Below are positions 4,446-29,047 of a stretch of DNA of 64,000 nucleotides, piece after piece. Location of the stretch: the IMG/VR virus record IMGVR_UViG_3300009034_002625, positions 1 through 64,000 of that record, one strand, 5' to 3'. Origin of the DNA: a virus. The position numbers and the translations under genes were made by a program. Within the stretch, counting starts at the first letter, position 1; each line of letters starts with the position of its first letter. A model generated the notes under the pieces. The model was given only the letters and a program-made list of their open reading frames with translations, ran no database searches and was not told the DNA's origin.

Positions 4446-7400
4446 TATGCACTATCTCCTATTGCTATTATAAAAATTTGTGCTGAATCCACTTTGGCTG
4501 GGCCTGCTACATTTAATGTTTGAAACTCAACCCATTCTGTATTAAGCGTTCTTACAATAACAACAGCATTATATGTTGCTTGGTCAGTATATCCTGCACC
4601 TCCTACTGCATAGTCGTCATTAGCAAAATCTATATCCCAAGTCACAGTATATTCTCCTACTGCGTTATCTGCTATGCCAGCCACATTGTAACTATCCCGT
4701 TCAGCAATTACTCCTGTTCCATCAAAATTTATCCAACCATTTATAGCACCTTCGCCTTTAAAAGTGGGTGCGGTTATTACACCATCCTTGCCTATAGTCA
4801 TCGCAGTGGTATCCACCAATCCAGTGTTGGAAGTCTTAATTGTTATCTTGGTTGGAACATAATCTGCACCTGCATTACCATCTTGCTCAGCTAATATATA
4901 TGCACCATAAGCCCAAGCCTGATTGGTATCAACTCCCTTAAAACCTATTACCCCAAACCATTCCCCATCAATTGTGTCTATCATAGTTCCATAAGTATCG
5001 TGATGAGATTTTCTAAATAGAAAAAGGGATTTTTGGGTATCAGTATCAGAATAACAATCAAATAGATGGATATTATCCGCTGCGGCTAAAGCCGAATGTA
5101 TTGTTGCGTCAGGGGTTGTTTCCGCTCCAAGACCAAGTTGTCCTTTTAAATAATTATCTGCGCCAGTTCCAGCCTGATATATGCCATAGTCAACATTGGT
5201 AGCTTCATCAAGATAGAGCATATATACAGAGCCAGTCGGGTCTTTATCCGCATCAACTTTTATATATTGTCCATAAACATCTCCTGCGATAGAAGCCATT
5301 GCAGATTCCAAATCTACATCTACATAGCTACCGCAAACATTTACAGAGACAGTTCCGCCGTCTCCGTCAACCTGAACAGAAGTTCCATACAAACTATCGT
5401 GAACAGTTCCAGAAAGAAGTCGTGCAATACTTCTTATTCCAGCAGCCTCTTTTGTATTAACCGCATCTCCAACACTAACGGACTTGTCTAACTGCATTGT
5501 ATTGTGTATGCCATAAACATCTCCCACTTCAGTCGAGGCGTGATTCATAGTTATGTTGTTTAAAATGCCATACATATGATCATCGTGGTCAGTAATTCCT
5601 GCTGTTTTAGTATGTTGATTTTCAAATCCACGATAAGTAGTGGTAGTATCAACAGTAAGATTTAATATTCTTACACGCCCATCTGCCACATCCAAAGCAT
5701 AAGTTGTATCGCAAATAGTTACACTTCTTCCATCTCCAGAAAAGTAACCAGCCCAAGAAGTTCCGAAATCAGTATAACTGGCGGGCAACTTACAACTGAT
5801 ACCTTCAAGAACTGGAGCCCCGCCATTACGAGTTGTTCCACTCCAGTCTATATTTACTCCCCTGTAAGTTGCCGTAGCACTTAAAGCAGTAGATCCTGGG
5901 TCAGTATAGGAAAAACCTGTCTGGATTTTATTTTCTGTCATTTCCTCGAGAAACAAACCAAAACCAGTAGTAGTATCTGTGGCAGATGGAGCAACCCAAA
6001 AACCAGATAAAATAGCATCCTTATCCACGCTTACTAAAGTAGAAAAGTCAACATAGCAACCAGCGATAGCACAATTTGCACCTGTCACTGGGTCTAAAGC
6101 AGTTGCGTCAATGATTATACCTGCCCAAAGGGAACCCGCATCCAAAGGATTTTGGGAAGTTATAGCAACAATAGTTTGGCTTCCAGTCGCAGTAGGCTCA
6201 ATTTTAAATCCTCCATCGCTATATAGTGTAACATTATTGTCTATCCAATCAGTAAGTTCAGTATGCTGTGCTGATGTTAAATGATAATATTCAGCAACAG
6301 TTCCGCCTTGAAGCCCAGCCAAATCGCCGTGGTCTGAAACTCCAGTTCCAACAAATACTGTAACAAAAGCACTTTCAGTAGAATAAAAAGTCGCACTATT
6401 CTTTTGTATTATTATCTTACCTATCAAGGTAGCAAGCTTGGTGAGTCTATCTGGCAAAGTAGATGGTGGTTGAACTCCCAGTGCTTCCGCTAATTTATAA
6501 TCGCCTTGTCCGTATACAATACCGACATCTCCACTCCATCCCTGATATACCCAGTGGACACCATATCTGTTTGCTGTAAGAGCAACAAGACCTGGATTTT
6601 GTCCATAATCGTTCCATTGAGTATTGTCAACCTGAGATTGAGTCGCAACTTCCACCCAACCAGTATGGTCATTATACCAATAGCTAAATCTATCAGCACC
6701 AGAACTATCAAAGGCAGCAGTTAGAAGAAAATTTAATCCTGCATACCAAGATCCTGCTGTAACAGCAATGTTTCTTGCTCCAGTTTCAGAAAGAATAGAT
6801 CCAGCAGTTCTTTTTGCAATATCAGCAGCAGCGAATCTTCTATTTGTCATGTGAGCAATATTGCCAGCGGGTTGACCGCCCTGAACAATACAAATAGTAT
6901 TTCCATCTTTATAAACCCTGGCTATTGGAAATTCATCATTAAAGTTTATTGTAGTTGGATCTGTTGTGTCCTGTATTATGGGCGCACCAGCATTATAGTT
7001 TATGTAAATATAGTTCAAATCAGGATCACCAGCTGGTGTATAAGAAGCATCACCAGCCCAGTCAAAAAATAAATTGTTTGCTACATTAGAATCAGAACTT
7101 CTTATAAATCCAGTTCCAGCACCAATATTGACAGTTCCATCTCCGTTGTCAGTTACGGTTATCGTGCCTATATGTCCTGCCGACTGAGCTGTATCAATAA
7201 AATGCTGAAGAGTTTTATAAGTAGCTCCTGTAATATAATCAACTGCAATATGGCCATCAAGAAATCCAGTTGTCCCATCAAATTTAGCAATGTCAACATA
7301 CGATGCTCCATTCCACCATTGAACAGTCATATCATAATTTTTAAGTCGCCAGACTAAGGTTCCACTATCTATGTCAACATTCAGTTTTGATCGAGAAACA

Positions 7401-11925: not shown

Positions 11926-14874
11926 TTATCCCAGAGCGATTGTAGATTTCTCAAACATATCGGGAATTCTTTCTGTAAGAGCTAGTGTAATTTCCTCAGT
12001 TATTTCATCAATTCGGGGTTTCACTCTCTTTTCAACTTCATCTCCTACGGCTTCTGCGGTTTCTTTAGAAGTTGGTTTTAGTTCCACCATTGTTTCAAGC
12101 TTCACAGTTCCTCCCACATCAATTTTTGCAATGGGAGCTTTAAGCTTAAATGCTTTCTCAAGTTTTTCTTTTAAAAGCGGACTAACTTTTTCAATTTCTC
12201 CAAGCAGAGCTTTCCAATCTTCTTTCATTACTTTAATTCTACCTCGAAGCTCTTCTGCTATTCTCAATTGTTTTTCAGTTTCAATTGGCAACATACTCAA
12301 TATTTTTTCTAAGCCTTGAATTTCTTTGTATTCTTTTGCATAATTATTTATTTGTTCAAGGGTTATTTTCTTTAAAAGCTGATGAGCTGCATAAACATGC
12401 TCTCCGTGTATTACTTCTCTTCCTCTATTTTCGGCTAAGCGTTTGGATCCCTCAAGCATTTCTTTAAGCCAGCCAGCTGAACTTTCTATCTGTTTCCCGA
12501 CTATTTTATAGCTCTTTTCAATATCCCATCGACGCCAAAGCTCTTCTTGGGCCGTCTTGGGAATTTCCGTAAGAGTCTCCAGTAAATGCTGGGCCTCTTT
12601 TTCATTTATGCTAACCACTTCTGCTATTTTAGAAAATCTTTTTCTAACTTCGTCAATAGGTTTAGGTAAATCCTTAATGGGTTCTGGCATTCTAGTTTTC
12701 CCCAAAGTATCTTGAAATCTTGTCCATGCATCTTCCATCTCCGAAACATCAGTATCGAACTCTTGAGCTAAATTATCAAAAGCAGGTGTTAAAGCATTAA
12801 AAACTGATTCTAGAGTATAAGCAAAACCAATTATCGCTGCAAGTTTCGCTCCAGCTTCAACTATACCCCAAAGACCTTTTTTCGCTAGACTAAGTGTCAG
12901 GGTAAGTAATGTCCCAGCTTTCCAAGCATCATATATTGCTTTTCCGATCTTGACGAAAGAAAGGCCCATGCGAGTTAGCCAAAAAACTATTTTTGAACTG
13001 ATGAAAAACCATATTAATTTTGATCCAAAGACTTTAAGAATGCTCAAGGCTCCTTTTATTGCTTTAATTAAAAGGGGGAAAAGAACTATTGCTATTCTTG
13101 CAAAAGGTTCTGCAATAGCTACTAAAACTTCCAGAAAATATCCAAAAGCTGTAATCAAATCATGAATTACTTCAGCATTAAGCAAGCCTTCTTCTGTAAC
13201 TACTTTAAATCGTTTTCCCAAATAAGTTAAAGCTTTCCATGTCATACTAATTGTTTTATATAACATTAAAAATCCAGGAAGAATCCATGTCTTTATTTTT
13301 TCCCCAATATCTTTAGCCCATTTTAAAATTACTTTTCTATTTGCAATAATAAAATCAGAGATTTCTTGAAGAGCTGGAGCAAATGTCTCCATCAAAGTAA
13401 TCCTAACCCAATCGATTACACTTCCTAACATTTTGAAAGAAGCCCAAGCTGAATCTGTAACTGTAGTTAATTTCTTTTCTAATTCATTAATATCCTTCAT
13501 AGCATCAACATGCTTTTTCATTTTTTCAGTAGATATACTCAGCCAAGCTGCCAACCCAGACAAAGCTCTAATTCTGCCCATTAAAAGAAAAGCTTCTGCT
13601 TGTTCACTTTTTGTAAGTGCATCTGTTGCATCTTTCAATAATTTGTGAAGATCTAAGAGTTTTAAAATTTCAGGACCTTCTTTGTTGAAAATATCTGCAA
13701 GTTGTTCATGCGTAATTCTTAATTTAGTTGCCATAAATTCGCCTAAATCCATTTCTTCCCCGGAAGCCCTAAGCATCTTAATTACTCCAGCAAGCATTCT
13801 TCTCAAGAAAGTTCCTGCTTTTGCACCCTTAATCATTTTATCGTGAAGAACCATAAGAGATGCAGTAACTTCTTCAAAAGTAATTCCCAAAGAATATGCA
13901 AGGGGCCCTATATAAACCATTGCTTCCGAGAATCTTTGCATTGTCAAAGCAGTTCTAGATATCGCATAATCCATTACACCAACAATATGAGTTAAATCAC
14001 TAGCTGTTAAATTGTAGGTTTTCATTACGCCTATTGCGGTTTCACTAGTAGCAGCTAAAGATTCTTGGTGAACTGTTGCAAAAGCAATTACAGGACCCAG
14101 AGCTTGAAAAATTTCTTTTTGCTTTAGACCAGCAGATGCCATCCAATATGAAGCCTCAGCAATTTCTTTCGCAGCGAATACACTAGAAGCAGCTAATTCA
14201 AGAACCCTTTGCTTTAAAGTTTCCTGAATTTTTATCGAACCTCCCATGATTGCTGAAGTTCTAATAATCGCACTTTGTAATTCAGCCCAAGGATCGTAAA
14301 GACTTTTAACAGCTCGAAAAAGTGTATAACCTATAAGAACTACTCTTAAAAAAAATGATTGTAAACTTCTCAAGGCTTTAAAGCCTCTGGTAATGCCCCT
14401 CCAAAGAACTCCAAATCCTTTTCCAACCATATTTACACCTTTTCCAAGACGTTGAGTAGTTCGCATGACCCTTGATGTCCAATGAGTTAGGGTTTTATAT
14501 CCTGCTGCCAAGACATCAACCACTGCCTTTTGTCTTTGAAATTGATTGATAACCCGCTTCGCATCTTTTTCTACTATTTTGGCTACAGAAGTCGTTTTTC
14601 TCTGAGATTTATTAAATGTTTCATTTGCTTTGGCAACTTTTAAAATAGCAGGACCATATTTGTCAAAACCTTTAGTGAGATCTCGCATGATTTTGAGAAT
14701 AGCTTGAGCCTGCTCATAAATTTTTTTAAAGACTTCGGTAGGAGGAGCAATAGTCTTCCATTGTTTGGAAAGTTTCTGCATTTCTTGGGTAAACTCTGCC
14801 CCAAATTCTGCCAAAGCCTTCATTGCGGGCTGATAATTAGCAGAGATTATTACAACAGCATCTGGCTTGGCCAT
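11926..14874 (-). CDS. tail tape measure protein
   Basis: A 982-residue protein with the TP901-type tape-measure core at about residues 190-390: alanine-rich helices with ASSVFAAKEIAEASYWMASAG, then LAATSETAIGVMKTYNL and SLGITFEEVTASLMVL. Long amphipathic helices precede it. Hydrophobic segments at about 545-700 could insert in the membrane or line the tail lumen, and the C-terminus is helical. Tape measures set tail length at about 0.15 nm per residue, which would give a tail near 150 nm. It lies just after the chaperone genes, the canonical siphophage order. Confidence 0.9.
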   Translation of the reverse strand: MAKPDAVVIISANYQPAMKALAEFGAEFTQEMQKLSKQWKTIAPPTEVFKKIYEQAQAILKIMRDLTKGFDKYGPAILKVAKANETFNKSQRKTTSVAKIVEKDAKRVINQFQRQKAVVDVLAAGYKTLTHWTSRVMRTTQRLGKGVNMVGKGFGVLWRGITRGFKALRSLQSFFLRVVLIGYTLFRAVKSLYDPWAELQSAIIRTSAIMGGSIKIQETLKQRVLELAASSVFAAKEIAEASYWMASAGLKQKEIFQALGPVIAFATVHQESLAATSETAIGVMKTYNLTASDLTHIVGVMDYAISRTALTMQRFSEAMVYIGPLAYSLGITFEEVTASLMVLHDKMIKGAKAGTFLRRMLAGVIKMLRASGEEMDLGEFMATKLRITHEQLADIFNKEGPEILKLLDLHKLLKDATDALTKSEQAEAFLLMGRIRALSGLAAWLSISTEKMKKHVDAMKDINELEKKLTTVTDSAWASFKMLGSVIDWVRITLMETFAPALQEISDFIIANRKVILKWAKDIGEKIKTWILPGFLMLYKTISMTWKALTYLGKRFKVVTEEGLLNAEVIHDLITAFGYFLEVLVAIAEPFARIAIVLFPLLIKAIKGALSILKVFGSKLIWFFISSKIVFWLTRMGLSFVKIGKAIYDAWKAGTLLTLTLSLAKKGLWGIVEAGAKLAAIIGFAYTLESVFNALTPAFDNLAQEFDTDVSEMEDAWTRFQDTLGKTRMPEPIKDLPKPIDEVRKRFSKIAEVVSINEKEAQHLLETLTEIPKTAQEELWRRWDIEKSYKIVGKQIESSAGWLKEMLEGSKRLAENRGREVIHGEHVYAAHQLLKKITLEQINNYAKEYKEIQGLEKILSMLPIETEKQLRIAEELRGRIKVMKEDWKALLGEIEKVSPLLKEKLEKAFKLKAPIAKIDVGGTVKLETMVELKPTSKETAEAVGDEVEKRVKPRIDEITEEITLALTERIPDMFEKSTIALG

Positions 14875-14878
14875 CTAT

Positions 14879-15567
14879 CTATCTCCTAGGTTTCTTCTTT
14901 GAAATTTTATCTGTTTCTTCTTTTTCATATTGATGAATAGCATCATCAATTACCATCAAATAATTTAAAAGCCTTGGCGAAAGATCGTCAAAGCTTTTAA
15001 GTCCTGGATATCCGCTAAAGATTTTAATCAGCCTATACATTCTGAAAGCATAGGATGCATAAGGCCAAATATCTGGCATTAGATATTTCGGACAAGGAAC
15101 TCCTCGGATCTTTCCCTCGCAATCTGGATCCATTCCCTTGGCTTGTATAGTCTTTTCGCAAGTTTCACAAGAAGGCAATTTGGGATTCTTGAGACTCCAG
15201 GTTACGAGATCTCTGAGTTTTTTTCTTCTTCCTCCTCCAATTCTTCTTCTTCTGTAATGCCTCGAATTTTTTCTATCAAATCAGTAACTATTTCTCCAGG
15301 CAGAAGGAGAATTTTATCTAAAGCAAAAGGAACTTCTTGTCCTTCTCCATCAAAAACTTTTTCCCAGCCTTGTATGCCTCTTTTCAGATATTCAAGACCA
15401 ACAGTAGAATACTTAAAGTCAATCTTCCGCTTTCCTTTCATTGCCCACATCTTGTCATCAATCTGGGCTCTTTCTTCAGCATCTAACCTTCTATAAAAAA
15501 ACCTAGATTCTCCTACTTCGTGGACCAGCTTTTCTCCGGGGCTGATCAAAACAACTCTGTCCGTCAT
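14879..15567 (-). CDS. tail assembly chaperone, frameshifted long form (GT-type)
   Basis: The upstream 121-codon frame and the downstream frame appear to be joined by a -1 shift on an A AAA AAC heptamer at 15217-15223. After the shift the reading continues CTC AGA GAT without a stop, giving about 229 residues. The downstream domain starts with a CETCEKTIQ cysteine pair and has no good start of its own: only a TTG at 15178 with no ribosome site. Lambda G/GT and many other siphophages make tail chaperones this way. The long form would bind the tape measure and recruit tube subunits. Confidence 0.8.
15202..15567 (-). CDS. tail assembly chaperone, short form (G-type)
   Basis: A 121-residue protein between tail tube and tape measure. 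It is acidic at the C-terminus, with a run of Glu just before the slippery site, and has a helical core with FFYRRLDAEERAQID. This size, place and acidic end match G-type tail chaperones, which coat the tape measure before tube polymerisation. Normal termination at TAA (15202-15204) gives this form; frameshifting gives the longer one. Confidence 0.8.
   Translation of the reverse strand: MTDRVVLISPGEKLVHEVGESRFFYRRLDAEERAQIDDKMWAMKGKRKIDFKYSTVGLEYLKRGIQGWEKVFDGEGQEVPFALDKILLLPGEIVTDLIEKIRGITEEEELEEEEEKNSEIS
15217..15223 (-). promoter_or_regulatory. -1 ribosomal frameshift slippery site A AAA AAC
   Basis: Read on the minus strand in the frame of the upstream chaperone gene the codons are GAA AAA AAC, a canonical X XXY YYZ heptamer. 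Thirteen sense codons in the -1 frame bridge it to the downstream chaperone domain. It lies 13 bases before the zero-frame stop codon, as in known tail-chaperone frameshifts. No clear downstream pseudoknot was resolved by eye. Confidence 0.8.
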
Positions 15568-15585: not shown

Positions 15586-16491
15586 TTATGTTACAGTAAC
15601 TTCCAATTCCATATCACTTCCTGAGCGAATAGCTGTGTATGAAACATTTTCTTCTACTACTTGATCGCCTCTATCAAAATCATATTCTGGAAGAATCACA
15701 TGTTTCAAATCAAAGGCCCAAGTATCCGTGCCATTTGTAAAAGAAAGCTGTAATGCCTTTTCAGTCTTATTTTGAACATCATGCCAGAAATCGGTAGCTT
15801 CATCTAACTCAAGAATAAAGTTTCCCGTGCAATTTGCTACTCCTTCAGGATGCTCTTTTGTATAACAATCTCCAGTTGTAAAATAATCAGAGGCAAAACC
15901 ATTGTCATAAACAATTTCAGCAGATCTAACAGCTGTAGGCGTAACACCAACCGTAAAGGTTCCCTGACACATTACAAAAGGTTCTTTAAGCGGTGAATAA
16001 GTAGGAGATTGCAGACTTGCAACATCTAGTAATTTTCTAGTATATCTCCCAACAACATTCAAAGAAGCTCTTAAAATTTCTCGATTAGCCATTGTAAAAG
16101 TAATTGAAACAATCTTGACGCCGACATGGACAAAGCCTAAGCCTGCAATTCTTTCTTGGATCGTGAAAGATTTCAATCCAGCATCGTCTGGTTTATAAGT
16201 ATTTACACTTTGGGGCCCGATTGCCCATTTCAGAAAGTTATCAAATTCTCCATCTCTCACATCAATATCGGGAATAGTTCCAGCAAGAACTTTGTCACCC
16301 CAAGCAAAATATCTTTTCCCGCGAGTTCCATCGGTTCCATCCTGCTCAATCACATTAGGAACCATTTTAAGATCAGTATCCCCATAAGATCTTAACCAAA
16401 TAGCTCCAGAAGAAAAATCAGTTTCTTCTACACCCCAATCAGTTTCTTCCTTAAACCCTATCGTTCTTTTCCATTGATAGTCTCTTGCCAT
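15586..16491 (-). CDS. major tail tube protein
   Basis: A 301-residue protein just before the tail chaperones. The N-terminus (WKRTIGFKEETDWGV) and the closing DLKHVILPEYDF followed by a YTAIRSGSD strand resemble the phage tail tube family (Phage_tube type). The rest is beta-rich. These proteins polymerise as hexameric rings around the tape measure. It has a good ribosome site (AGGAGGAAAAGAA) and opens the tail part of the operon. Confidence 0.75.
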   Translation of the reverse strand: MARDYQWKRTIGFKEETDWGVEETDFSSGAIWLRSYGDTDLKMVPNVIEQDGTDGTRGKRYFAWGDKVLAGTIPDIDVRDGEFDNFLKWAIGPQSVNTYKPDDAGLKSFTIQERIAGLGFVHVGVKIVSITFTMANREILRASLNVVGRYTRKLLDVASLQSPTYSPLKEPFVMCQGTFTVGVTPTAVRSAEIVYDNGFASDYFTTGDCYTKEHPEGVANCTGNFILELDEATDFWHDVQNKTEKALQLSFTNGTDTWAFDLKHVILPEYDFDRGDQVVEENVSYTAIRSGSDMELEVTVT

Positions 16492-18219: not shown

Positions 18220-19293
18220 TTACTCCGCAAAACTTTCATCTACGGTTATTTCGTAACCATATGGTGAATTGGGTAAAAGTTTATCATAAAGATCTCTAAC
18301 AAAACTCAAGAATAAACCACCATCATCTGAATCAGTTGTAAGGTAAAAAGCATCATCAAGAACAAACAAAGGAACTAAAACATAACGAGTCGCAGCAATA
18401 GCATAAGCAGTAGTTCCATCAATTACTACAGATCCTGAAATTCCAGATGCATTTTCTTGGGTAATTGTGCAAGTTACGGGAGCTCCATCATAATAAGCAG
18501 TTCCGCTTGCAACAAGTTCGTCTCCATCCGAATCTGAATAAAGTTTAATAGTCAAAACATGAGTATAGCCAACTCCATTGGCAACAACTGTTAAAGTATA
18601 ATAAAGTTTTCCTTCATCTGAATTATCATTATCATAACCAGTCAAAGACCAAGATGAAAGTTGATTATTGGTATCACCATATTCAAGAATTGTAGTTCCT
18701 TCTATTATCTTAAAAGAAATTCCACCTTCTTCCCATTCGTAATCTTCATCCGTTACAGGCTGAACAGAAGGTGAAGCAATCGCAGAACACCTTACTTCCC
18801 AAAGTTCAGATCCTTGGGTTCCTACATCTGAACAGATAACTTCAATATAATTATCTTCTCTAGCCATTTGAGTAGTAAGATAATTTATTAGACTTCCCGC
18901 ATTGGAATTAGTCAAACTGCTTGTTGGGCCGCTAGAAGAAATCGTATTAGCTTTAACCTTATCGCTTGCGGAATTCATCTCTCTTATCAAATCATCTATT
19001 ACCTGAACTACAGTCTCATCAAGTCCTGAATTTAGTTGTGTTTTTACAAAATTGCTGAAAAATGAATCACAATCGGTCTTGATCAAAGTATCTTTCCAGG
19101 TAAGATAGGTACTTTGCTTTGCATCAAAATCATCCAGTGCTGTCTCAAGAGATTCCATATCTGATTTATTCGTATTGAATAAATTAACAAATGCTTTCCT
19201 TATTGATTCATAATAGTCATCATATTCAACCATTGTATTTCTAAACATTACATATTTCCCCATGCGACGATAAATTAAATCACGATCGTACAT
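18220..19293 (-). CDS. structural protein of unknown role
   Basis: A 357-residue protein not recognised by family. The N-terminal ~130 residues are helical, the middle ~170 are beta-rich and Asp/Thr/Ser-rich like an Ig-type or decoration domain, and the last ~45 are helical. It lies between capsid and connector genes, so a capsid decoration, neck or head-closure role is likely. Its ribosome site AAGGAGGA lies in the last codons of the HNH gene, which suggests that gene was inserted just upstream. Confidence 0.5.
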   Translation of the reverse strand: MYDRDLIYRRMGKYVMFRNTMVEYDDYYESIRKAFVNLFNTNKSDMESLETALDDFDAKQSTYLTWKDTLIKTDCDSFFSNFVKTQLNSGLDETVVQVIDDLIREMNSASDKVKANTISSSGPTSSLTNSNAGSLINYLTTQMAREDNYIEVICSDVGTQGSELWEVRCSAIASPSVQPVTDEDYEWEEGGISFKIIEGTTILEYGDTNNQLSSWSLTGYDNDNSDEGKLYYTLTVVANGVGYTHVLTIKLYSDSDGDELVASGTAYYDGAPVTCTITQENASGISGSVVIDGTTAYAIAATRYVLVPLFVLDDAFYLTTDSDDGGLFLSFVRDLYDKLLPNSPYGYEITVDESFAE

Positions 19294-20099
19294 TTCTTCC
19301 TCCTTCTTATTTTTCCAGCATAATTATCAGTTTTTTTATGACACACTTGGCAAAGAGTTTGCCCATTTGAAATTTCAAATCTTAAAGCAGGATATTTTGC
19401 AAAAGATAAAACATGATGAGCATTTAAATAATTTCCTCTTTTCCTACATTTTTGACAAATATAATTATCTCTTTCAAAAACTGCTTTTCTCCAATCTTTA
19501 TATTCTTTTGAATAATATCCTGTTTTATAACCTTTGCTTTTTCCACCTTTCCAATTATAATGTTTCGGCCCTTTTATAGATTGACCAATTTTATCTCTGG
19601 TCTTTTGAGAACGAGGAGGTCTTCCAAGTGAACCACAAGATTGAGAACAATATTTTCGGGAAACAGAAGGTATAACTTCAAAAGCTTTTCCGCAATATAA
19701 ACAAACTAATACCTTTCTTTTATAAGGAGCATGTCTTTTGCGTTTCATTCCTTTTCGAGTCAGTAATCCTTTTTCTATGGATTCTTTAGATAGTTTTCGA
19801 CCTTTGAGTTTTATGCTAATTTTCAATTTGGATTCCAAAGTATGATGTCTTCCCGAAAAAGTTGGAGGGGGAGTTTGTTTCAGCCGAATAATTCTTAATT
19901 TATTTTTAGTTTCTTCAGAAACTTTTTTTCCCATTAAAGCTTTAGATATTTTCTTTTTGTGATCCAAGGAAAATATTCTTCCCTTACCACTCAAGCTCAT
20001 TTTTTTCTTAGTTTCTTCCGAATGAAATTTTCCCATGTGTGATTTTCTCATTTTCTCTATAGATTCTTCTGAATGTTTAAAACCTAACCTATTAGGCAT
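19275..20099 (-). CDS. free-standing HNH homing-type endonuclease with NUMOD3 repeats
   Basis: A 274-residue protein. Residues ~5-110 contain several NUMOD3-like DNA-binding repeats (FKHSEESIEKMRKSHMG, FHSEETKKKMS, SEETKNKLR). A CxYCGKxF..C..SC zinc-binding patch follows at ~130-155, and an HNH domain at ~205-262 has ERDNYICQKC, LNAHHVL and the final CQVCH. It is probably a mobile homing endonuclease. It sits between capsid and connector genes and overlaps the next start by 19 bases. Confidence 0.9.
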   Translation of the reverse strand: MPNRLGFKHSEESIEKMRKSHMGKFHSEETKKKMSLSGKGRIFSLDHKKKISKALMGKKVSEETKNKLRIIRLKQTPPPTFSGRHHTLESKLKISIKLKGRKLSKESIEKGLLTRKGMKRKRHAPYKRKVLVCLYCGKAFEVIPSVSRKYCSQSCGSLGRPPRSQKTRDKIGQSIKGPKHYNWKGGKSKGYKTGYYSKEYKDWRKAVFERDNYICQKCRKRGNYLNAHHVLSFAKYPALRFEISNGQTLCQVCHKKTDNYAGKIRRRKKCTIVI

Positions 20100-20108
20100 C
20101 TTCCCCCC

Positions 20109-21560
20109 TTAACTTGCTATGTGAATATTATAACCAGAAAATTTTTCCTTAATTGTCTGAGTCATATATAAAAAGGATAATTTATCCTTTAAACTTTTAC
20201 CCTCAAAAGTTAAATTGACTTTAGAAGATTTTGACATCTCATTAAATATTTTGTGTCTAGTTGGTTTAGGAAGAAACTTTTTAATCTTTTCGGCAAGAAC
20301 ATCCAAGCTGAATTTTTCTAATTTAAAATTGCGAATTTTCTTTTTTCCCGATACAGCAATCTGGATAGATTCCTGTATCTCTTTTAAGTTTTTTTGATTT
20401 TTCACATATATCAAATCATCTCCATATTCCCGTTTTAGTTGTTTCAATTCTAAAGCTACAAATGGCTTATTGAATGCTAAAAACTCTGCGGGAACCATAC
20501 CAAAGCCCTCATGCCTAGAAAGAACAATCCCAGCTTTTGATCTTTGAATTATTTGAAATTTTGTTTTATCGTCTACCCGTTCATAATAATTGAATTTGTG
20601 AAGATTATTTCCATTTCCAAAAACCTCTCTGACTTTCGAAGTTCCAGTTCCAATATAATTAAGATCCAATGGATCTTTCATTTCAATAATTGCTTTTCCA
20701 ATTTCTTTCCATCCTTTAAAATCTGCAATTCTTCCTATATAAGTAATTTCATTTTCTATTTTCTGCTTTAGAACACTTTTCATAACTTCTAAATTTAATG
20801 GCGGTTCACAAATGTGAATAGGAATTCTATTAAATCTCTTATCCCATTCATAAAATTTTTCTTTAGTCATTTTTGAGCTACAAAGTATTGCATCTGCTTG
20901 GAGATATTCTTCTCGATGATCTACAATTTTATCTTTCCATTCAGGAACTTCTTCTGTCAACCATTTGTCTGTTTCATAACAAAATAGCCAAATCGGAATC
21001 TGAAAAAACTCACCATATTCAATAGCTCTTTTTAAGCATTGCGGAGGAGTCCCGATTACCAAATCAAAACCTGCATACTTAATAGCATAACGGTTATTAA
21101 ATTCAAATGAAATGCCTATTTCTCTTTTCCAATCATTCATAAAAGGAGATTCTTTCGGAGTACAAACATGAATATGCGCTCCAGTTTTAGCTAAAGCTTG
21201 GACTAAAGCATAATCAGAATATCTTGCTCCAGAATATCCAGGATCATCAGCAGTCATGAATAAAATTTTAAATTTACGTTCAGGATGAAAAGCTCTCCGG
21301 ATATCCTTTCTGGAACTAAACGCTCTAGACTCTCCAACTTCAGGTGCTTTCTCAAACCACTTTTCAAAAACATCTGCCCCCACTGAAACTTTTTGAAAAG
21401 GTGATCCCGAGGAAAGAAACCAATTTTTCATCAAACTGGAAATAGGAAAAGGTTCTCCCTTGAGAACAGTAATTTCTCGACCCCAGCGAGAATTTAAAGT
21501 ATTTTCAATTCTTTTCGCTTTTTTGGGTCCGGTATAAACTAACCAAATAACATCTTCCAT
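20109..21560 (-). CDS. glycosyltransferase, GT4-like
   Basis: A 483-residue protein with a two-domain GT-B layout. The donor-side half has NEITYIGRIADFKGWKEI and SRHEGFGMVPAEFLAFNKPFV, the typical GT4 EGFG motif with its following Glu. The N-terminal ~90 residues are an extra domain of unknown role, then DDPGYSGARYSDYALVQAL, a typical N-terminal Gly-rich loop. It would transfer a sugar from an activated donor. Placement right after the capsid gene suggests modification of virion protein, or of host or phage DNA; the substrate is not shown by the sequence. Confidence 0.85.
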   Translation of the reverse strand: MEDVIWLVYTGPKKAKRIENTLNSRWGREITVLKGEPFPISSLMKNWFLSSGSPFQKVSVGADVFEKWFEKAPEVGESRAFSSRKDIRRAFHPERKFKILFMTADDPGYSGARYSDYALVQALAKTGAHIHVCTPKESPFMNDWKREIGISFEFNNRYAIKYAGFDLVIGTPPQCLKRAIEYGEFFQIPIWLFCYETDKWLTEEVPEWKDKIVDHREEYLQADAILCSSKMTKEKFYEWDKRFNRIPIHICEPPLNLEVMKSVLKQKIENEITYIGRIADFKGWKEIGKAIIEMKDPLDLNYIGTGTSKVREVFGNGNNLHKFNYYERVDDKTKFQIIQRSKAGIVLSRHEGFGMVPAEFLAFNKPFVALELKQLKREYGDDLIYVKNQKNLKEIQESIQIAVSGKKKIRNFKLEKFSLDVLAEKIKKFLPKPTRHKIFNEMSKSSKVNLTFEGKSLKDKLSFLYMTQTIKEKFSGYNIHIAS

Positions 21561-24524: not shown

Positions 24525-27500
24525 TTAGTCCCTTTCTCCTCCAGGGCCAGCCAATCTTTGAAAAACCCAAATGTCGGCTTTGGGGGTTTCTCTTTTGAAA
24601 GTATATAGTCCCTTTAAATGCTTTCCCTTGAATTCCGCCGACATGAAATTTGGATTGTCCTCCAAAATATTCAGCGAACCAGAATCTTCAATATCTACAT
24701 TCGCCTCTATTTTCTTGTTAGGATTTTCCCCATGCGCCGGTGGAAGCTTGCCTTTAAAAGTCATCCAAGCTTTCACTGGAGCATTGGGAGGACCAATTGT
24801 CGTCTTAACTTTTTTTGCAGCAACCGCTTCTTCAAAAAGAGGTGATTCTTTCAACTTGAAAGTATCAAGCCATTCTTTGCCCCTATCTATTCTAGTAGAA
24901 TATTGTTCAACCGGCATTGCTCTCACAACTTTTGCACCAAGCCACCATATTTTCTGAAGAATGAATTTTGCTTTAGCTAATTCCAATTCTTTTACTTCAA
25001 TCTTTCTATGTTTCAAATAACCTTCATCGATAAGCCAATTAAAAGCTAAATCCATTTTTTTCAAAGCCTCATTTTTGGATACAGCTTTAGTCCACCATTT
25101 TATTTCATCTGGAATGATAGCTTCAAATTCAGGAGATAATCCCGATGTTCCCCGAGGTGGAACATAGTCTCTTTTCTTCCTTCCTTCTGGAGACATCAGA
25201 TAGGGAATTTCATTTTTAGTCTTAGAGAAAAACCAAAAAAGTTCCTTCTTCCCAACTCTTTCCCATTCTTTTCTCCTACCTATTAAACGTGTAATAAATC
25301 TTCCTTTATATTTACTACCTCTCAAAAAATACTCTCTAAAATATGCCTTTCTGGTTCCGGGCCAAGAAAGACCCCAGTCTTCTCCCCAGAATACTCCCTT
25401 TTTAGTAGCAGTTGCACCTACTTGACCAGGTTCAACAATATTTTTAATTTCCTTAATCCATACCAAGGGTTGAGTTCCTTTTTCTGTAGCATAGAGTCTG
25501 GTTCCAACCGGCATATCTGGTCTCATTTTTTTAATTTTGGGATCATTCGCATATTTTTCAGCTTTTTCAAAAGTATCAACATCTTCTTTTATTGCCCCCT
25601 TAATCTGATTAGCAATAGTCCAGCCTTCAAGATGATCATTTATTTTAATCCTAAGATCGCTGTGCAAACTCCGTCCCCTGAAATGATCAGATAGTTGGAA
25701 GAATCCTTTTGGCAATGTTTTCGGATCCATCTTTAAAATTTGTTCTCTAGTTTTACCAGTCCATTTTTTAAACTTGCTTTCCACTTCTGGAACTTTTGGA
25801 GGTTCTTTCTCAAGATTGATTTCTTCTTTAAAAGAAAGTTCATAAAAAGAAGAATGATAAGATAATCTTCCGCTTATCGCTTCTTCCCCAGCTAGCTCAG
25901 CTTCTTCTTCAAAAAAAAGTTTTTTCTTTTCAAAAACTTCTTTGTATCGTTTTGGGAAAGGCTTCTCGGCTATTTCTCCACCAGTTTCTTTAACAAGTTT
26001 CAAAGCAAACTCCAAACTATCAGGTTTAGTTTTATCTTCACGTTTCTCAATTGGTCGAGCAGCCCACATATTCAACCAAATCTCATTGGTTTTGGGATCC
26101 GTATATTTATTTATATTTGAGAAGGCCACTCTTAATATATCTCCTACCTTACATTTGATTCTAGTGTTATAAGTCCTTCCTGAAGGAATTAACTTATCTC
26201 CCTTTCTCACAACCGTGAGATAATTCCATGCTGCTAACTTTCCAGCTTTAGGACCTGCAACCTGATGGATATCAATAACTTCTACATCTAAGTCAGCTTC
26301 TTTTTTGCCTTTAACCCATTTAGTTGACATTCCACCTAAAGGATAAGTTCCTTCTGACTGCTTAACCATCATTCCTTCTGAATTCTTGATCCCCCCAAAA
26401 TGTTCCCAAGCCTTTTCTACTTGTCCTTCATTTTTGCAAAGCCTCCATTCCATAACTTGGAGTTTACTTAAATTTAAAGGCTTGATTGCTTTATCTAAAA
26501 CATGTTTTCTTTCCATTTCAGTTTCTTTATGCAAATCTCTATCATCGATCATTAGAATGGTAAAGATATTAGCAAAGAAAGGCTTGTCATCTACAGCTCC
26601 TTTAGAATGAGCATATCCTGCAACATCGCTTCTACCCATATGTTTGCCTTTCAAGAATCCCTCAGACCATCCTTCTATTTCACTATCAACGATAAAATCT
26701 TGTTTAACCTTTTTGGCTTGAGCAACGATAGTTGGAAGTCTATGAGTCCAATCTCCACCATCTTCAGATTGGATTTTTACTCTATCACCCTTTTTACTGA
26801 TAATAGCACGTGCACCGTCCGCTTTCTTATCAATGATAAACTCATAATCTTCAGGCTTGAATTTGCCTTTCAAAAAATTCAAGATATTCTTAATCGAATA
26901 AACTTCTTGTTTTCTATATCCTGCAATTCCTTTAAGTGGAAGAAAATATCTAAAATATTCTATCTTATCTTCTCGTTTTGACTTTTCAGCTTGACTGCTA
27001 ACTTCTTCTGATTTAATTCTCTGGAAATTCCAACCATCTTTAGATAGACCTACCAGTTTATCTTCGCATCTTTCAAATTTAATATTATAGAGAGGAATAT
27101 AACTAGTAAATAATCTGGAATCAGAAACAAGATGGATGTCTTCCATCAAATCTGTAGGTAATTGGGACATAAGTCTAAATTCTTCTTCCGGCAGTAAGTC
27201 TCTCCTGCAAATCAAATCAACATCATTCCCGTGTCCTGAAACTGCCATTGAACCAGCAAGACAAACAAGTTCTTTTCCTATATAGAAATCTTTAAATAAA
27301 TCCAAAACTCCCTGAAGTTTATATTTTCGCTTCTGGCCATAAAGCTCATATTTCATAGAAATCTTATCAAGCAGGTCTATGATTCTGTGTTCCATATTCC
27401 TTCTATCTCTCATTTCATCAACAACAAAAGCATGAGCATGAATCAAGGGTTCTGAAATTTTTGGGTAATTTTCCCAGAAGATATCATGGAGTTCTGAATG

Positions 27501-28082
27501 AAGAATAACTAATTCTTTATTCGAAAGACTGTCCAGATATTCAGGCGTAACCTCTTTAATATCAAACTTTCTCTCAAAATTCAAATAATGAATATCGTCA
27601 ACAAAAGCCTGAACTTCCTTTTTTTGCTTGATATCTTTTGGCCTATCAAAAGGAATAACTTCCCTAACTTTCCACAAATAAAACTCTTTAACATTTGGCC
27701 AAAAAGCTATTCTTTCATCATCTGTAATTTTATGAACATCTCTTAGTTCATCGAATTCTTTTCGAGAGATCTTTTCATAATCCTGAAAACGAGCTAGGCC
27801 ATAGTCTTTCTTGCCACTCACAATATGATAAAAGCCGCGTAGGTCAAATTTCTTTGATTTAACCACGGCCGCTTTATTGCCCGATATGAGCATCTGAGCA
27901 TGCGGAGAGACTAAAGTTAGGCCCTTCGTAGATTCCTTCGCCAGGACTTCTCGAAAGACCTCTCGAGAAATTCTCTTCATTTTGTTAGGATGGAAAACAG
28001 TTGATTCTCGATCAATTAACTCCCTAACAATTTTTCCCAAAAAAGTCATAATTTGTTCTTTTGTAAAATCTTTTATTTCCAT
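24525..28082 (-). CDS. nucleotidyltransferase / ATP-dependent DNA ligase / LigD phosphoesterase-like fusion
   Basis: About 1185 residues from the ATG at 28082. The N-terminal ~250 residues include a region (KKFDLRGFYHIVSGKKDYG) and a helical H-x-x-LH plus H-x6-EM pattern. A polymerase-beta-type nucleotidyltransferase follows (GSMAVSGHGNDVDL, ~277-290). The ligase core spans ~390-600 with motif I KADGAR, a DSEIEGW motif III, EGMMVKQSEG motif IV and KWVKGK motif V, followed by an OB-like region. At ~800-830, H-x6-HSDLR resembles the LigD 3'-phosphoesterase. The closing strand LYTFKRETPKADIWVFQR also fits that domain, so ~300 residues may be inserted in it. It would seal and trim DNA ends; its place among head genes is unusual. 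Confidence 0.8.
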   Translation of the reverse strand: MEIKDFTKEQIMTFLGKIVRELIDRESTVFHPNKMKRISREVFREVLAKESTKGLTLVSPHAQMLISGNKAAVVKSKKFDLRGFYHIVSGKKDYGLARFQDYEKISRKEFDELRDVHKITDDERIAFWPNVKEFYLWKVREVIPFDRPKDIKQKKEVQAFVDDIHYLNFERKFDIKEVTPEYLDSLSNKELVILHSELHDIFWENYPKISEPLIHAHAFVVDEMRDRRNMEHRIIDLLDKISMKYELYGQKRKYKLQGVLDLFKDFYIGKELVCLAGSMAVSGHGNDVDLICRRDLLPEEEFRLMSQLPTDLMEDIHLVSDSRLFTSYIPLYNIKFERCEDKLVGLSKDGWNFQRIKSEEVSSQAEKSKREDKIEYFRYFLPLKGIAGYRKQEVYSIKNILNFLKGKFKPEDYEFIIDKKADGARAIISKKGDRVKIQSEDGGDWTHRLPTIVAQAKKVKQDFIVDSEIEGWSEGFLKGKHMGRSDVAGYAHSKGAVDDKPFFANIFTILMIDDRDLHKETEMERKHVLDKAIKPLNLSKLQVMEWRLCKNEGQVEKAWEHFGGIKNSEGMMVKQSEGTYPLGGMSTKWVKGKKEADLDVEVIDIHQVAGPKAGKLAAWNYLTVVRKGDKLIPSGRTYNTRIKCKVGDILRVAFSNINKYTDPKTNEIWLNMWAARPIEKREDKTKPDSLEFALKLVKETGGEIAEKPFPKRYKEVFEKKKLFFEEEAELAGEEAISGRLSYHSSFYELSFKEEINLEKEPPKVPEVESKFKKWTGKTREQILKMDPKTLPKGFFQLSDHFRGRSLHSDLRIKINDHLEGWTIANQIKGAIKEDVDTFEKAEKYANDPKIKKMRPDMPVGTRLYATEKGTQPLVWIKEIKNIVEPGQVGATATKKGVFWGEDWGLSWPGTRKAYFREYFLRGSKYKGRFITRLIGRRKEWERVGKKELFWFFSKTKNEIPYLMSPEGRKKRDYVPPRGTSGLSPEFEAIIPDEIKWWTKAVSKNEALKKMDLAFNWLIDEGYLKHRKIEVKELELAKAKFILQKIWWLGAKVVRAMPVEQYSTRIDRGKEWLDTFKLKESPLFEEAVAAKKVKTTIGPPNAPVKAWMTFKGKLPPAHGENPNKKIEANVDIEDSGSLNILEDNPNFMSAEFKGKHLKGLYTFKRETPKADIWVFQRLAGPGGERD

Positions 28083-29047
28083 GTTCCTTGTTTCCTTTTG
28101 GCCGAAGCACAAGCAAGTAGAAATCGCATATCATCCCTTAATTGTATCTCAGTTCTACTATCGGCTTCATATTTTTCAGTATCAAGTTCTTTGTTATTTT
28201 CAATGGGCTCATTTATACAAACCCATAGTTGGTTGTCAATATCTTTCCCGCCTAAAATATTTCTGCTGGTCTGCAATTGAACTCGTTCGACAGATTTAAA
28301 AACTATCTCAAGATTTTTTCTGATATTTCCTTCGCAATGCATAAGAAAGATTTTGCAGTTCTTGCTTAGTTTATTAACTATCTGAGGAATATCATTTAAA
28401 TTGAAAGGCATACTAGCTATCTCTTTTTGTTCCAAAATGCAATCCAAAAATTTTTGAGGTTCATATTTAGATGAATCGTATGGCGGGTCAAAATAAACTA
28501 CATCTACCTTTGGAAAATTCATTCTTTGAATATCTTCCCTTAAAACCTTAGCCTCTTTTGAAAAATTTATTCTTCGATAGAAAGATTGTTTAATTTTCTC
28601 TTCTAAAAATTCCTCAAATCGCTTAGAAAAGTTATTTTCTCTAATTGGCATATAGGTAAAATAATGAGTAAAGGTATCCGCCAACACTCCCAAGCCAATA
28701 TGTTTTTTCTTCATTTGTTGTGCATGAACTGCCAATCCATCAATTCGTTTTCTTAATTCTTCGGGTTCTTTTCTCATCTTTGCTTTAGTAAACCATCCTT
28801 CAACTGGCTTAGCTTTTAAGAAAGCATCAGTTTCTTCCTTTGTTAGTTTGTCTTTTGAAAGCAAATAACGAGAAAACCAATAAGGAACTCCATTAACATC
28901 GTTAGCTAAAACTTCCATTCCTCGTCTTAAGCAAGATAAAAGAACCGTGCTTCTACCACAACAAGGATCAAAGATGGACTTCGCCCCAACTGGAATTCTC
29001 TCCAGAATATCGTCTCGAACTAAATGTCTACTTTGCCACCAAATCAC
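28073..29047 (-). CDS. DNA (adenine-type) methyltransferase-like protein
   Basis: A 324-residue protein with an S-adenosylmethionine-binding motif FDPCCGRSTVLLSCLRRG near residue 25 and a catalytic DPPYDSSKY near 150. The order, SAM motif first, fits alpha- or gamma-like N6 methyltransferases. The mid-region between them is long and basic and may hold target recognition. It is joined by overlaps to portal and ligase-fusion genes. It may modify phage DNA before or during packaging, but the base and site are unknown. Confidence 0.8.
   Translation of the reverse strand: MIWWQSRHLVRDDILERIPVGAKSIFDPCCGRSTVLLSCLRRGMEVLANDVNGVPYWFSRYLLSKDKLTKEETDAFLKAKPVEGWFTKAKMRKEPEELRKRIDGLAVHAQQMKKKHIGLGVLADTFTHYFTYMPIRENNFSKRFEEFLEEKIKQSFYRRINFSKEAKVLREDIQRMNFPKVDVVYFDPPYDSSKYEPQKFLDCILEQKEIASMPFNLNDIPQIVNKLSKNCKIFLMHCEGNIRKNLEIVFKSVERVQLQTSRNILGGKDIDNQLWVCINEPIENNKELDTEKYEADSRTEIQLRDDMRFLLACASAKRKQGTWK

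Follow-up and report, generated by a model that had tools for sequence, protein, structure and literature searches.

The programmed -1 frameshift of phage lambda gpG/gpGT was reportedly described by Levin in 1993 and by Xu, Hendrix and Duda in 2004, and the lambda slippery site is G_GGA_AAG. In the lambda-like scheme, G is the main product and GT the minor one, with G binding the tape measure protein and T recruiting the tube protein (PMC5009743). A_AAA_AAC at a tail-chaperone junction is also already known. The heptamer accompanies a -1 shift in the gp93/gp94 chaperones of phiCbK and its relatives (PMC3556154), and it lies at the chaperone junction of gp12/gp13 in Acinetobacter phage Loki (PMC5313236) and of g-t in the haloarchaeal virus HCTV-2 (PMC5009743). 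Outside tail genes, E. coli dnaX combines A_AAA_AAG with a downstream stem-loop, and about 50% of ribosomes shift there (PMC5009743).

The window analysed here is a stretch of 64,000 nucleotides from a virus record of 73,022 bases. On its minus strand it carries the following features:

15586 to 16491, minus strand: tail tube protein, upstream neighbour (PF18906, E=2.7e-20)
15202 to 15567, minus strand: G frame, predicted 121-aa tail assembly chaperone and product of normal translation (ORF; phrog_344, E=0.0069)
15217 to 15223, minus strand: slippery heptamer A_AAA_AAC in the zero frame of G (4 in-frame copies per 16,497 codons)
14879 to 15217, minus strand: T frame (-1), 112-residue C-terminal domain of the predicted 229-aa fusion (gene-like codon usage, significant open frame)
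15176 to 15178, minus strand: TTG, the sole early start-type codon of the T frame, without a properly spaced ribosome-binding site (sequence)
11926 to 14874, minus strand: tail tape measure protein of 982 aa, downstream neighbour (PF10145, E=7.7e-25; TIGR01760, E=2.3e-28)

The gene order is tube, G, T, tape measure, with the G/T pair directly between tube and tape measure and the tape measure ATG 4 nt past the T stop. Judging from its sequence, the pair very probably forms the gene for the tail assembly chaperones of a long-tailed virus, with a -1 shift yielding two proteins. Like lambda G/GT, it lies between the tube and tape-measure genes and pairs a short G with a longer GT, with a heptamer near the end of G and a T at -1 that lacks its own start. 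Unlike lambda, it carries A_AAA_AAC rather than G_GGA_AAG, has no detectable sequence similarity to the lambda genes and encodes a T domain with four cysteines (order C-x2-C ... C ... CP). It resembles phiCbK gp93/gp94 in the AAAAAAC heptamer, the position before the tape measure and the predicted -1 shift, but phiCbK is an unrelated Caulobacter phage, and no INPHARED record matched GT of the window virus. Loki and HCTV-2 share A_AAA_AAC at the chaperone junction, but in Loki an additional gene separates the chaperone from the tape measure, and HCTV-2 infects archaea. The likeness to dnaX extends to an A-rich heptamer and an upstream Shine-Dalgarno-like element at a similar distance; dnaX, however, has A_AAA_AAG and a stem-loop, and the window virus A_AAA_AAC and no strong stem.

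Family assignment by homology was limited. G matched phrog_344 (tail assembly chaperone) only weakly and gave no Pfam or NCBIfam match, T had no match in Pfam, PHROGs or NCBIfam, and neither has a confident sequence homologue. The AlphaFold model of G, set against the beta hairpin plus helices of a chaperone fold, showed a hairpin followed by helices but had a mean pLDDT of only 41 and that of T of 49, and both models are too poor for use. Direct protein searches of IMG/VR with G, T and the tape measure, and of INPHARED with GT and the tube protein, yielded no confirmed relatives; the tape measure found only distant tape-measure matches in INPHARED, at about 25% identity. Elsewhere in the window, the head gene block contains a 1,195-aa ORF (24525-28112, minus strand) in whose interior lies an ATP-dependent DNA ligase domain (422-603; PF01068, E=2.6e-23); outside that domain it has no Pfam or PHROGs match. 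Two further minus-strand ORFs, 19275-20099 and 20109-21560, placed between capsid and tail genes, look by eye like an HNH/NUMOD-type homing endonuclease and a glycosyltransferase, respectively.

The sequence-only reading had proposed an in-frame GAA AAA AAC at 15217-15225, a -1 frame open through 13 codons into a downstream domain that otherwise has only a TTG start with no ribosome site, and predicted products of about 121 and 229 residues, all of which the present analysis bears out. The G frame is preceded by an AGGAGG Shine-Dalgarno ahead of its ATG. GAA AAA AAC (15225-15217, minus strand) is in frame with the 121-aa ORF (15567-15202), which ends ...GAG GAG GAA GAA GAA AAA AAC TCA GAG ATC TCG TAA. 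A canonical X_XXY_YYZ heptamer, A_AAA_AAC, lies four codons ahead of the G stop codon. In-frame A_AAA_AAC occurs four times in the 16,497 codons of the window's 51 ORFs, so that only about 0.006 would be expected within the 26-codon G/T overlap. Synonymous shuffles gave 2.85 +/- 1.5 copies; the motif is neither enriched nor depleted across the window, and avoidance elsewhere is therefore not used as evidence. Among the Asn codons of the window AAC is the minority (103 vs 557 AAT).

The -1 frame is free of stops from 15280 to 14879 (minus strand), and a shift at the heptamer would give ...EEEEEKN-LRDLVTWSLKNPKLPSCETCEK..., 229 aa in total. Between the stop of G and the start of the tape measure lie 327 nt, in which one frame is open for 106 codons; an open run of that length in any of the three frames of this region appeared in 3/5,000 dinucleotide shuffles. 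Codon usage of the -1 frame is gene-like at +0.167 per codon, real genes scoring +0.253 +/- 0.062 in frame and -0.075 +/- 0.061 and -0.094 +/- 0.116 out of frame. If T were instead made as a protein of its own, through internal initiation or through re-initiation at TTG 15178 (~24 nt past the G stop), the 99-aa ORF that this TTG opens would be the product. Yet the nearest Shine-Dalgarno-like GGAG ends 16 nt 5' of the TTG, too distant to serve, and no ATG or GTG occurs upstream of it in the -1 frame 3' of the heptamer. Also against separate translation, 13 open -1 codons (CTC to AAA) lie between the shift and the TTG, and the junction has a rare heptamer.

Distant relatives were reached through the terminase and their tail modules compared. 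Nine terminase-related viruses have a two-frame chaperone ahead of the tape measure, the second frame being at -1 in seven and at +1 in two. All seven with T at -1 have a canonical heptamer within the overlap:

L036: A_AAA_AAC (ten A then C), T at -1, 0.032 canonical heptamers expected in the overlap
L039: A_AAA_AAC, T at -1, 0.009 expected in the overlap
L130: A_AAA_AAT, T at -1, 0.077 expected in the overlap
L131: G_GGA_AAA, T at -1, 0.005 expected in the overlap
L132: G_GGA_AAC, T at -1, 0.030 expected in the overlap
L129: G_GGA_AAC, T at -1, 0.96 expected in the overlap
L134: T_TTT_TTA, T at -1, 0.53 expected in the overlap

The chance expectation is below 0.08 in five of the seven (L036, L039, L130, L131 and L132), while the heptamers of L129 and L134 are uninformative at 0.96 and 0.53 expected by chance. 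L130, L131 and L132 were picked by tube or tape-measure family alone; L039 is not independent of the motif because a slippery-site scan found it. Two glycosyltransferase-like ORFs adjoin the chaperone gene of L039. The G frames of L130 and L134 matched tail assembly chaperone families (phrog_344, E=0.043, and phrog_1442, E=1.8e-4, respectively). No useful tail module was present in a capsid relative, L002, or in L003 and L004, two records found by way of terminase and capsid. In L133 and L135 T is at +1, where no -1 heptamer is expected. Both G/T regions (L133 4323-5124; L135, minus strand) have TTT CGT in the overlap, which would permit a +1 slip from TTT to TTC, making them candidate +1 chaperone frameshifts.

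Gene order, the rare heptamer and these relatives support the earlier assignment to a tail-chaperone -1 shift of the lambda G/GT type, as do the weak phrog_344 match and a T frame without a usable start. The relatives also bear on separate translation of T. In L130 (minus strand; G of 112 aa, T of 116 aa) and L131 (minus strand), an ATG of the T frame sits at the stop codon of G (TAATG and ATGA, respectively), so that coupled re-initiation is possible in those relatives, but overlap heptamers are present in both of them too. For the window virus, we regard separate translation as a highly unlikely source of T. The T proteins of L130 and L131 both carry C-x2-C, HCP and CP motifs. Homology of the window T to these Cys-rich T proteins was suggested by the common C-x2-C but is not put forward here, hhalign giving no support. 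Speculatively, the terminase lineage would make T in two ways: the window virus exclusively as a frameshift fusion, L130 and L131 both fused and free, from the ATG at the G stop, with T a Cys-rich and possibly zinc-binding domain.

The frames could also be joined without a ribosomal shift if RNA polymerase slipped on the A run and some transcripts gained a base. With seven A, the run is short against the stretches of around nine A or T for which such slippage has been described (PMC5009743). In L036 (minus strand, end of the G ORF at 6828-6831) the slippery run at the equivalent place is ten A then C, long enough for polymerase slippage to join the frames there, alongside or instead of ribosomal slippage. 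L131, L132 and L129, however, carry G_GGA_AAN heptamers without a long A run, and polymerase slippage in the window virus seems very improbable. That a one-base mistake of sequencing or assembly in the A run split a continuous gene is scarcely credible: an eighth A would yield a single open frame and the record is a virus contig, but the genes nearby, up to 2,080 codons long, are intact and the two-frame layout recurs in independent related records.

Two elements flanking the heptamer were considered as possible stimulators of the -1 ribosomal shift:

15231 to 15238, minus strand: GGAGGAGG, possible internal Shine-Dalgarno stimulator (sequence)
15191 to 15213, minus strand: weak 7-bp stem-loop, 3 nt 3' of the heptamer, no better than shuffled sequences (z -1.26, 22/200)

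In GGAGGAGG (15238-15231), located within the Glu run, the first GGAGG ends 10 nt 5' of the heptamer and the second 7 nt. The 10-nt gap falls inside the 9-14 nt spacing given in a review for internal Shine-Dalgarno stimulators of -1 shifting (PMC5009743). When the same peptide was recoded by genome codon use, 6.6% of synonymous recodings contained such a GGAGG (P=0.066); its presence is therefore only mildly unexpected, and a stimulatory role only suggestive. No significant RNA structure was found downstream of the heptamer across the windows tested (z -0.19 to -1.26), and a strong downstream stem-loop of the dnaX type is absent.

Under the predicted -1 ribosomal shift, most ribosomes would complete G as the main product. 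In a minority, the tRNAs on AAA and AAC would slip back one base to AAA-AAA, and these ribosomes would continue in the -1 frame to make the 229-aa GT as a minority product. Base pairing between 16S rRNA and the GGAGG that ends 10 nt before the heptamer may make the shift more frequent. In E. coli, A_AAA_AAC is less shift-prone than A_AAA_AAG (PMC5009743); a genome scan for the host of the window virus returned only weak terminase matches in unrelated bacteria. A chaperone function of G/GT is carried over from position and architecture. If the gene works as lambda gpG/gpGT does, tape measure protein would be coated by the G part and tail tube subunits brought in by the T part, and neither G nor GT would stay in the virion.

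With identical heptamers published for phiCbK, Loki and HCTV-2, the window case joins a known phenomenon. It is a sound but ordinary example that changes no concept. Its value lies in the correct annotation of a gene which standard gene callers would either divide or overlook, and in extending the chaperone frameshift, as predicted here, to a divergent virus without a close sequenced phage relative.
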